From: Cytophagales bacterium
GTDB lineage: Bacteria > Bacteroidota > Bacteroidia > Cytophagales > 172606-1
Reading direction: 5' to 3'
DNA length: 64,000 bases
Assembly: GCA_030446715.1 (NCBI GenBank)
Contig: JAUJMU010000013.1
Span: 1-64,000, forward strand
Part shown: one piece after another, positions 42,606 to 44,906 of the stretch
How positions within the stretch are numbered: the stretch's first letter is position 1
Layout: every line of letters begins with the position of its first letter
Program-made: the position numbers and the translations under genes
Notes under the pieces: model-generated
Databases searched by the model: none
What the model was told of the DNA's origin: nothing
What the model saw: only the letters and a program-made list of their open reading frames with translations

Positions 42606-42974
42606 ATGGGAACAATAGCATATAATTATACCGGATTGGTAGATGCCCTCAACGATATGAAGGCCCGTGGATACGCCGGCGATTTCCGCATTATTGACTG
42701 CGAAGGGCCGGACGAAAGCAGTCCGTGCCGCCTGCAGTCTGATACTTCGGGTAAAATGTACAAAAACGACCAGTTGATCATCCGGGAGCATTACCGCTTT
42801 GAGGGTCCGTCCAACCCGGATGATATGTCCGTGGCCTACGGTATTGAATGCGAGGGAGGCGAAAAAGGCGTCCTCGTAGATGCCTATGGCACGTACTCCA
42901 GCCGCAGGGTAGCGGAGTTTCTCCGCGATATTCCGATTATCATGGACCCCGGCAAGGGTATTTCAAACGGATAA
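42606..42974 (+). CDS. small conserved protein (misnamed phosphoribosylpyrophosphate synthetase family)
   Basis: A 122-residue cytoplasmic protein. The pattern LVDALNDMKARGYAGDF at the N-terminus and HYRFEGPSNPDDMSVAYGI…KGVLVDAYG in the middle recalls a small Bacteroidota family that databases often label 'phosphoribosylpyrophosphate synthetase' although it lacks PRPP synthase motifs. The real function is unknown. It is a single gene with its own terminator. Confidence 0.7.
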   Translation: MGTIAYNYTGLVDALNDMKARGYAGDFRIIDCEGPDESSPCRLQSDTSGKMYKNDQLIIREHYRFEGPSNPDDMSVAYGIECEGGEKGVLVDAYGTYSSRRVAEFLRDIPIIMDPGKGISNG

Positions 42975-43148: not shown

Positions 43149-43439
43149 TCACGCTTTCTCCGCGTACACGGTGATGCTGTAAATTCCGGTACCTGAATTT
43201 CTCAAGGTGCGTATTTCGCCGGCTGTCAGAAAAATGCCCAGTTTTTTCAGCTCCTGCAGGTGCTGCGAGACAGTGGTGCGGCTGAGGGGTAATTCCCGGG
43301 AAATATCACCGGATATGCACGTCTTCCGGGCAGCCAGCAGCCGGATAATAGCCACCCGGGCCGGATGGGAAAAAGCCCTTGCAAACCGGGCCAGTTCCTG
43401 ATCTGCAGGACTGAAGCCTTCTGTTTTGGAGTACGTCAT
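43149..43439 (-). CDS. ArsR-family transcriptional regulator
   Basis: A 96-residue winged-helix repressor from the ATG at 43439 (TTG at 43442 is possible). The helix-turn-helix is ISGDISRELPLSRTTVSQHLQELKKLGIF, preceded by FARAFSHPARVAIIRLLAA, typical of ArsR/SmtB. One Cys (KTCISGD) lies near the position of metal-sensing ELCVC motifs, but the full motif is absent, so metal sensing is doubtful. An 18-bp inverted repeat lies directly upstream and is the likely autoregulatory operator. No transporter or metal-resistance gene is adjacent; xseA is divergent. Confidence 0.88.
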   Translation of the reverse strand: MTYSKTEGFSPADQELARFARAFSHPARVAIIRLLAARKTCISGDISRELPLSRTTVSQHLQELKKLGIFLTAGEIRTLRNSGTGIYSITVYAEKA

Positions 43440-43442
43440 CAA

Positions 43443-43482
43443 GCCTGGAAGTATGACGTATGTTTACGTCATACTTCCAGGC
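43443..43482. promoter_or_regulatory. 18-bp inverted repeat, probable ArsR operator
   Basis: GCCTGGAAGTATGACGTA (43443-43460) and its exact complement (43465-43482) are separated by four bases. The site begins four bases upstream of the regulator's ATG and lies between it and the divergent xseA promoter, the usual place for an ArsR autoregulatory operator. Confidence 0.65.
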
Positions 43483-43519
43483 GATGCAAGTGAAAAACAG
43501 AAATGTGGGGAGGGTTTGC

Positions 43520-43527
43520 TAATTTTG
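43520..43527 (+). promoter_or_regulatory. TAnnTTTG -7 box of xseA
   Basis: TAATTTTG is an exact match and ends 12 bases before the xseA ATG at 43540. Confidence 0.5.
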
Positions 43528-43539
43528 ACCTAAACTCCG

Positions 43540-44676
43540 ATGCCCGTGTTCAATAGTCCCAACGATCTGCTGACCGTCAGCGACCTTACCTACCGGATCA
43601 GGGAAGTGCTGGAATACGAGCCGGAACTGCAGGACGTAACGGTGCAGGGAGAGATTTCCAACTGCACCGTCCACGGTTCGGGTCACGCCTATTTCACGCT
43701 GAAAGACGAAGAAGCCCAGCTGAGTTGTGTGATGTTCAGGCGTTACGTGGAAGGCAGCAACCGGGGCATTCTGAAGCATGGGATCCGGGTGGTAGCCCAG
43801 GGCAGCGTGAGCGTTTACCCGCAGCGTGGCAGCTACCAGCTGATGGTGACCAGCCTGAAAGCCGACGGACAGGGAGATTTGCACCGGGAGTTTCTGCGAC
43901 TGAAGGAAAAACTCCTGAACGAAGGTTTATTTGACCCATCCCATAAAAAGCCCCTTCCTTCCTATCCCACCACCATTGGCGTGATTACTTCGCCCACCGG
44001 CGCGGTGATCCAGGACATTCTGCGTACCCTGCAGCGGCGTTATCCCTGCGCCCAGGTGCTGCTGGCACCGGCATTGGTGCAGGGCGAAACGGGAGCTTTA
44101 TCCGTGAAAAATTCGCTGGCGCGTCTGGTGGCGCAGGGTCATCCGGATCTGATCATCATTGCCCGGGGGGGCGGCTCAGCCGAGGATCTATGGTGCTTTA
44201 ATGATGAAGATCTTGCCAGGGCTGTATTTGCCTGCCCTATTCCGGTGGTTTCGGCCATCGGGCACGAAACCGATTTTACCATTCTGGACTTTGTAGCCGA
44301 CGTCCGGGCGGCCACGCCTACGGCGGCTGCCGAACTGGCGGCACCCGACCATCAGGAGCTGCTGGCGGCGCTTTCGGGTACGCGACAGCAGCTTTTCACC
44401 CACCTGCAATACCGCCTCAATCATCAGTTGCAACTGCTCGATGACCTCAGCGACCGGGTGGGTTGGCAGAAAAAATTGTTGATCGAACGGCAGAAAAACC
44501 AACTGGCCCTGCTGGAGGCGACGCTGAGGCAGCACGATCCCCGGCTGTTTCTGGAAAAAGGCTTTACCTTAACCCTGAAAAATGGAAAAGTGGTGAAGTC
44601 GGTCACCCAAACGCAGACTGGTGATACCATTGAAACCGTACTGGCCGACGGACGCATCGAGTCAGTAGTAAAGTGA
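43540..44676 (+). CDS. xseA: exodeoxyribonuclease VII large subunit
   Basis: Catalytic subunit of ExoVII, which degrades single-stranded DNA from both ends; 378 residues. The N-terminal OB-fold is VTVQGEISNCTVHGSGHAYFTLKDEEAQLSC (seen at residues 30-65). The conserved catalytic-domain blocks are IGVITSPTGAVIQDIL, IIIARGGGSAEDLWCFND and VVSAIGHETDFTILDFVADVRAATP. A coiled-coil region follows (HQLQLLDDLSDR…RQKNQLALLEATLRQ). It is shorter than the enterobacterial protein but normal for Bacteroidota. xseB follows 26 bases later, so both subunits come from one operon. Confidence 0.95.
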   Translation: MPVFNSPNDLLTVSDLTYRIREVLEYEPELQDVTVQGEISNCTVHGSGHAYFTLKDEEAQLSCVMFRRYVEGSNRGILKHGIRVVAQGSVSVYPQRGSYQLMVTSLKADGQGDLHREFLRLKEKLLNEGLFDPSHKKPLPSYPTTIGVITSPTGAVIQDILRTLQRRYPCAQVLLAPALVQGETGALSVKNSLARLVAQGHPDLIIIARGGGSAEDLWCFNDEDLARAVFACPIPVVSAIGHETDFTILDFVADVRAATPTAAAELAAPDHQELLAALSGTRQQLFTHLQYRLNHQLQLLDDLSDRVGWQKKLLIERQKNQLALLEATLRQHDPRLFLEKGFTLTLKNGKVVKSVTQTQTGDTIETVLADGRIESVVK

Positions 44677-44702: not shown

Positions 44703-44906
44703 ATGACAAGGAAAAAGGACGCATTTGTGCTGGAAGAAGCAATTGAGCGGATCAAGGAAATCGGGCAGCGCCTGCAGGACGGCCAGGTTTCATTTGATCA
44801 GTCATTGCAACTGTTCGAAGAGGCGGATGGCCTGATTAAACGCAGTCAGGAATACCTGCAGGCGGCGGAGCTACGGCTTCAGGTGCTGGGAGAAAAGGAA
44901 GAGTAA
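44703..44906 (+). CDS. xseB: exodeoxyribonuclease VII small subunit
   Basis: A 67-residue helical partner of XseA. The family pattern is evident: FVLEEAIERIKEIGQRLQDG, SFDQSLQLFEEADGLIK. It is required for assembly of the nuclease. It is directly downstream of xseA in the same orientation. Confidence 0.93.
   Translation: MTRKKDAFVLEEAIERIKEIGQRLQDGQVSFDQSLQLFEEADGLIKRSQEYLQAAELRLQVLGEKEE

Follow-up and report, generated by a model that had tools for sequence, protein, structure and literature searches.

The locus described here lies in the genome of a Cytophagales bacterium, within a window of 64 kb, by which we mean the whole stretch of DNA that was analysed. A small ORF and the divergent gene xseA, which is followed by xseB, flank a perfect inverted repeat (Table 1). 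The repeat reads GCCTGGAAGTATGACGTA-tgtt-TACGTCATACTTCCAGGC and is the longest perfect arm pair between 42800 and 43700; by our own arithmetic, such a perfect, closely spaced pair is expected by chance about 1e-5 times per 64 kb. The full site, GTATGACGTA-N3-5-TACGTCATAC, has a single occurrence in the 6.43-Mb genome, in which the 22-bp operator consensus has no second copy with up to 3 mismatches allowed. The initial annotation had described an exact 18-bp inverted repeat four bases ahead of an ArsR start and about 40 bases before the xseA −7 box. The repeat itself was borne out, as was the second distance, which we measured as 37 bases to TAATTTTG. Its proximity to the start also stood, but the distance did not: the gap to the likely ATG at 43439, where the alignments of most relatives begin too, is three bases, and to the TTG at 43442 it would be none.

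Table 1. Features of the arsR-xseA region, in window coordinates
Feature	Position	Strand	Basis or remark
Conserved neighbour (MGTIAYNY...) at the opposite border of the ars site	42606..42974	+	Synteny; no Pfam family
Fusion ORF	43149-43442	-	ORF list
arsM 3' end (27 codons and stop), in frame with arsR	43149..43232	-	blastn, tblastn, alignment
arsR codons 1-69 (HTH part) of the fusion ORF	43233..43439	-	Domain search, blastn, alignment
Perfect inverted repeat, 18-bp arms, 4-nt loop	43443..43482	n/a	Repeat search
Arms of the repeat, 18 nt each, 100% complementary, 4 nt spacing	43443-43460 / 43465-43482		
ArsR-type operator core TATGACGTATGTTTACGTCATA, putative	43452..43473	+, read toward xseA	Comparison with relatives
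-7-like centre TATGTTTA, putative	43459..43466	+, toward xseA	Centre faces arsR in relatives
TTG, 23 nt upstream of the centre in the arsR sense	43487..43489	-	Candidate old -33 element of arsR
-7 box TAATTTTG of xseA	43520..43527	+	Homologous-place comparison
xseA, exodeoxyribonuclease VII large subunit	43540..44676	+	TIGR00237, 439.4 bits (cut-off 180)
xseB, exodeoxyribonuclease VII small subunit	44703..44906	+	TIGR01280, 49.8 bits (cut-off 35)

Relatives of the regulator were compared in 81 loci, namely the window and the best 80 of 342 confirmed relatives in the genome collection, and an operator was called where at least 18 of 22 positions matched the core TATGWCGTATRTTTRCGWCATA no more than 200 bp upstream of the start. 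The core was present upstream in 71 of these 81 loci (window plus best 80 of 342), a count that is not independent and that overstates the number of independent cases, because the consensus was derived from the very loci counted and the majority are Hymenobacter; in control blocks from the same loci it was found in 0 of 1803. Two sites were present in 39 loci, one in 32 and none in 10, and the nearest site lay mostly 33-40 bases ahead of the start (same 81, best 80 of 342 included). In the window, the palindromic core occupies this orthologous position upstream of arsR. In 64 of the 81 loci (again the window and the best 80 of 342), the fetched flank holds an ACR3-, ArsN- or ArsC-like gene downstream, in the orientation of arsR. 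When one representative per downstream cluster was scored against NCBIfam, acr3 (402.8 bits, cut-off 282.8) and ArsI/CadI (134.5 bits, cut-off 116) passed, and the ArsN1a-like (139.7 bits) and arsC-like (160.3 bits) proteins fell under their cut-offs of 170 and 174.3. Because the core is conserved and ars genes lie downstream of most relatives, the core of the repeat looks like the operator of an arsenic-type ArsR, which would bind it. The operator predicted by the initial annotation is supported by these counts, and the check that it had proposed, absence of the repeat upstream of orthologous regulators, has now been run and found the core in place.

The small ORF is related to ArsR over residues 1-69 only, with no homology beyond. 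Its tail, FLTAGEIRTLRNSGTGIYSITVYAEKA, is identical at 16 of 26 residues to the end of the ArsM encoded at L015 (contig CADCTQ010000014.1 of AVDCRST_MAG56, of the same genus as the window), and in blastn the DNA of the tail matches L015 arsM at 81% over 47 bp. Against L015 as a whole, blastn finds an arsR 5' piece and then an arsM 3' piece, in preserved order, with about 1.1 kb missing between them on L015 coordinates, and a tblastn search of the 64-kb window with ArsM gave a single significant match, at 43232-43155 (E 8.9e-6; the next, 0.53). Given these ArsM matches in protein, in DNA and in tblastn, the ORF is, by alignment, arsR(1-69)::arsM(last 27), the product of an in-frame deletion. 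A frameshift behind the odd ArsR C-terminus was considered and rejected, the other two frames being free of the lost ArsR sequence. It is possible that the arsR/arsM join is a misassembly instead of a real fusion. Titles and abstract openings in the literature searched describe no ars pseudogene or fusion of this kind.

What the fusion has kept is the HTH core (PF01022, 39.8 bits, cut-off 22), with its recognition helix. Against the NCBIfam ArsR/SmtB model NF033788 it scores 44.6, below the cut-off of 55, whereas the intact L015 ArsR, of 110 codons, passes with 65.3. AlphaFold2 models L015 ArsR with wing strands at 70-75 and 78-83 and a helix at 85-102, and the fusion with helices at 11-22, 26-37 and 54-66 only; the wing hairpin and C-terminal helix are missing from the fusion in alignment and model alike. 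The pLDDT of the fusion is under 50 from residue 80, which is in part expected because the alignment behind its model holds zero ArsM rows. In ArsR/SmtB proteins the winged hairpin and the C-terminal helix make up the dimer interface, and the conserved cysteines of this ArsR subfamily would have a role in As(III) sensing. C41, C82 and C110 are invariant in 27 relatives, and the fusion retains C41 alone. Lacking the wing hairpin, the C-terminal helix and those conserved cysteines that lay in the missing part, the fused protein is probably a weak or dead regulator. Autoregulation, which the initial annotation had predicted, is very likely for the ancestral intact gene and doubtful for the present one, a truncated fusion that the operator centre no longer faces.

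Between the window and L015, arsR codons 1-69 show 31.5 synonymous and 11.5 nonsynonymous differences (dS 1.13, dN/dS 0.07), and the 352 codons of xseA give a dS of 0.98 and a dN/dS of 0.13. At 43 positions conserved in at least 95% of relatives the window departs at 4, and L015 departs at all 4 too. The ORF remains open, and its two parts are joined in frame, as would happen by chance in 1 case in 3. Since the HTH half has not drifted, these comparisons suggest either that the fusion is young or that the HTH half is still constrained.

Synteny points to the origin of the arrangement. In L015 the order is xseA, operator, arsR-arsM-arsC-arsN and then the MGTIAYNY-type neighbour gene; its ArsM scores 343.6 bits (cut-off 263), arsC-like and arsN-like genes follow arsM, and its xseA, 80% identical to that of the window, is divergent from arsR. 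This operon occupies the identical chromosomal site. The MGTIAYNY... protein, of about 120 aa and without a Pfam match, adjoins xseA in the genus, and is also encoded at L015:4069-4434. At L097 (G002:C222) and L098 (G001) the MGTIAYNY-type gene is followed by xseA with ars genes absent between. By tblastn across 94 loci, some of them overlapping, xseA and arsR adjoin each other in the window (L001, L002) and in MAG56 (L003, L015) and nowhere else. Downstream of the window's arsR, the arsM tail is all that is left of resistance genes, so that no functional operon is present, and the best match to ArsC or ArsN in the 64-kb window is no better than E 0.097. An ars operon at the window locus was gutted by deletion; the adjacency of xseA and arsR follows from the place of that operon, between xseA and the MGTIAYNY-type gene. 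The sole intact reference for this history is L015, which belongs to a MAG with 7% contamination and two xseA copies, and the sequence of events is for that reason loosely fixed. The ars operons of Hymenobacteraceae and relatives, in which ArsR/SmtB occurs with ACR3, ArsC, ArsM, ArsN and ArsI, have the regulator family in common with the window and carry the operator core at about −37, as in the window. The window differs from them in that arsR is cut at codon 69 and joined to an arsM tail, arsC and arsN are absent, and its operator, which has longer perfect arms, points the other way.

This reversal is seen in several comparisons. Among the 32 single-site loci (window plus best 80 of 342 sampled), the centre faces arsR in 31, and the window is the sole exception. 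The arsR-facing centres read TATRTTTR in 29 loci, CATATTTA in L044 and TAAGTTTG in L069, and resemble the Bacteroidota −7 box TAnnTTTG, which the available portion of a report on Flavobacterium psychrophilum places at −12 to −5 (PMC9723704). A TTG stands 22-24 bases upstream of the centre in 10 of the 31 arsR-facing loci; L015 is one of these, and its distance of 23 equals that found in the window in the arsR sense. Read in the arsR direction, the window's reversed centre is TAAACATA, and no TAnnTTT remains on the arsR strand between 43440 and 43700. When strict half-sites are required, the nearest strict site is reversed in 7 of 60 loci; six of the seven hold a looser arsR-facing site nearer the gene, and the window alone has none. 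In addition, the blastn alignment between the window core and L015 is itself reversed (96% over 25 bp). By these alignments the operator of the window is reversed, a change that probably leaves the arsR promoter weak or dead. The flip also probably turns toward xseA a −7-like element that lacks a corresponding −33 element, no TTG being found 22-24 bases upstream of the xseA-facing centre (43459).

The bases around the core suggest how the reversal may have come about. A right flank CTTC occurs in 30 of the 71 operators, and a left flank GAAG in 2, those of the window and L076; counted by eye, 6 of the 12 bases to the right of the core and 2 of the 12 to its left agree between the window and L015. 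Both the flip and the perfect outer arms would follow from a template switch in which the arm on the arsR side was copied to the opposite side, as a single copying of the right arm and centre accounts for the two together. The pattern expected of such an event, an inverted spacer and one arm that is the reverse complement of the conserved arm, is seen against the distant reference L015 only. There is a parallel at REG2 in yeast, where, in the available text of PMC8604942, a repeat with 5-bp arms became a perfect one with 16-bp arms and an inverted spacer; here, the L015 operator has 8-bp perfect arms and the window 18-bp arms, with the 4-nt spacer inverted. Unlike the yeast case, ours concerns a bacterial operator and one distant reference (dS about 1.1), so that the template switch is one we infer and leave undated. 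Titles and abstract openings in the literature searched held no matching template switching at operators or promoter inversion, and no flipped ars operator.

The candidate −7 box of xseA has a counterpart, TAAATTTG, at the corresponding place in the ars-free L097 and in L104, where ars genes are present; before the xseA of L098, TAnnTTTG was not found. Judged from sequence, xseAB most likely has its own promoter and is not under ArsR control, which is neither needed nor indicated given a −7 box that also occurs in an ars-free copy. The suggestion in the initial annotation that a DNA-repair nuclease might be under ArsR-type control is not supported: the adjacency comes from the ars operon, xseA has its own −7 box, and of the family's 8 genomes just the two that have this arsR contain the operator (at most 1 mismatch), with one copy apiece. 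A wider footprint of xseA promoters was not obtained, as just 8 of 118 genomes in the order, all of the family, reached E 1e-40 in the XseA search. Titles and abstract openings in the literature searched held nothing linking ArsR with exonuclease VII or xseA, and a search on ars operons in Bacteroidetes returned nothing matching. The window's genome also encodes a second, distant XseA-like protein, 33% identical, in a 582-aa open frame (L105, G000:C7:165487-166371).

Taken together, we consider it very probable that the palindrome represents the operator of an ArsR repressor of the arsenic type, a remnant left with a gutted ars operon, and that xseAB is a bystander. The ancestral state would have been that of the sister lineage L015, with arsR-arsM-arsC-arsN between the MGTIAYNY-type gene and xseA. 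As in intact relatives, the operator would have held a Bacteroidota-type −7 box (TATRTTTR) toward arsR, and since this box lies inside the operator, ArsR, once bound, would shut off the promoter of its own gene. A deletion in the lineage of the window would have fused arsR codon 69 with the final 27 codons of arsM, with loss of arsC and arsN. The template for the distal arm may have been, in one event, the arm proximal to arsR, which carries the common CTTC flank; this template switch would have left perfect 18-bp arms and an inverted 4-nt centre. Against a relic stand the arsR part without decay (dN/dS 0.07), the open in-frame ORF, the L098 xseA that lacks TAnnTTTG, and the dependence on one intact reference.

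Other histories can be proposed for the same features. The reversed site could be the leftover distal site of a two-site divergent arrangement whose proximal site was lost, without any template switch. The distal site is indeed reversed and the proximal one forward in 31 of the 39 two-site loci (sample of the window and the best 80 of 342), but the sister L015 has one forward site, the window's site lies at the proximal position (−34) with its TTG at the L015 distance, and the perfect outer 9 bp, GCCTGGAAG/CTTCCAGGC, would be left unexplained; we regard this origin as unlikely. Perhaps, instead, the fusion is a young and still functional autorepressor that controls itself alone, with xseAB a bystander. 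An open in-frame ORF, a conserved HTH and intact operator half-sites would suit such a protein, yet the loss of the wing and C-terminal helix, and the lack of any TAnnTTT-type box from 43440 to 43700 on the arsR strand, make it very unlikely.

It is harder still to credit a working ArsR that represses itself through the operator and also controls the divergent xseAB. The operator is conserved in relatives, its single genomic site adjoins both genes, the HTH half is strongly conserved and the −7-like centre points to xseA; however, the regulator is truncated, fused to an ArsM tail and short of the NCBIfam ArsR/SmtB cut-off that L015 passes, xseA has a −7 box that is kept in a copy without ars genes, and the xseA-facing centre has no TTG 22-24 bases before it. 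It is tempting to speculate that deletion and flip together made a new one-gene circuit, in which a minimal, selected ArsR HTH with an ArsM tail binds the perfected operator while its centre drives xseAB, and the level of exonuclease VII would then be tied to a former arsenic regulator. We give this idea hardly any weight, and keep it in view chiefly because of the undrifted HTH half. That the repeat is an RNA element, either a terminator or a 5' hairpin, has next to no probability, for although both strands would form a very stable hairpin (−35.6 / −37.2 kcal/mol, z −8.5 / −9.8), a T run is absent after either arm and the conserved part is the 22-bp core, whose half-sites are often imperfectly paired.

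Read as the remnant of an ars operon, the locus illustrates that a striking regulator and operator pair beside a repair gene can be a leftover and not a new circuit. It offers a small, readable case of two accidents: a deletion within an operon that left an in-frame fusion, and an operator that became both reversed and perfected. Provided that the template switch is true, promoters inside operators can be re-aimed in this way, and many two-site Hymenobacter ArsR operators are perhaps of the same origin.

Several further observations concern neighbouring systems. A second ArsR group in the window's genome (L012-L014) also belongs to the ArsR family and lies upstream of GNAT, arsC-like or arsM-like genes, but its proteins are just 48-50% identical and its operator is different, of the ATCGTAATATTGCGAT type; this group presumably makes up the genome's live ars systems. 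Across this second group (L004-L014) the operator is of the TATCGTAATATTGCGATA type, and in L014 it forms a perfect 26-bp palindrome. Hymenobacter arsR genes (L036, L054, L059, L078, L079) frequently carry a pair of oppositely oriented operators, 23 bp apart, and some of these blocks make one large palindrome with perfect 18-22-bp arms. Paired Hymenobacter operators are slightly more alike within a locus (mean 17.0 vs 16.7 of 22 identical, permutation p 0.0098, a statistic that ignores relatedness), and 6 of 42 pairs have at least 20 identical positions. Finally, a DUF6428 protein is encoded near arsR in 29 fetched loci (Hymenobacter ars cluster c3); in L068, for example, it lies 372 bases after the arsR start, and the protein ends in GGGCC.
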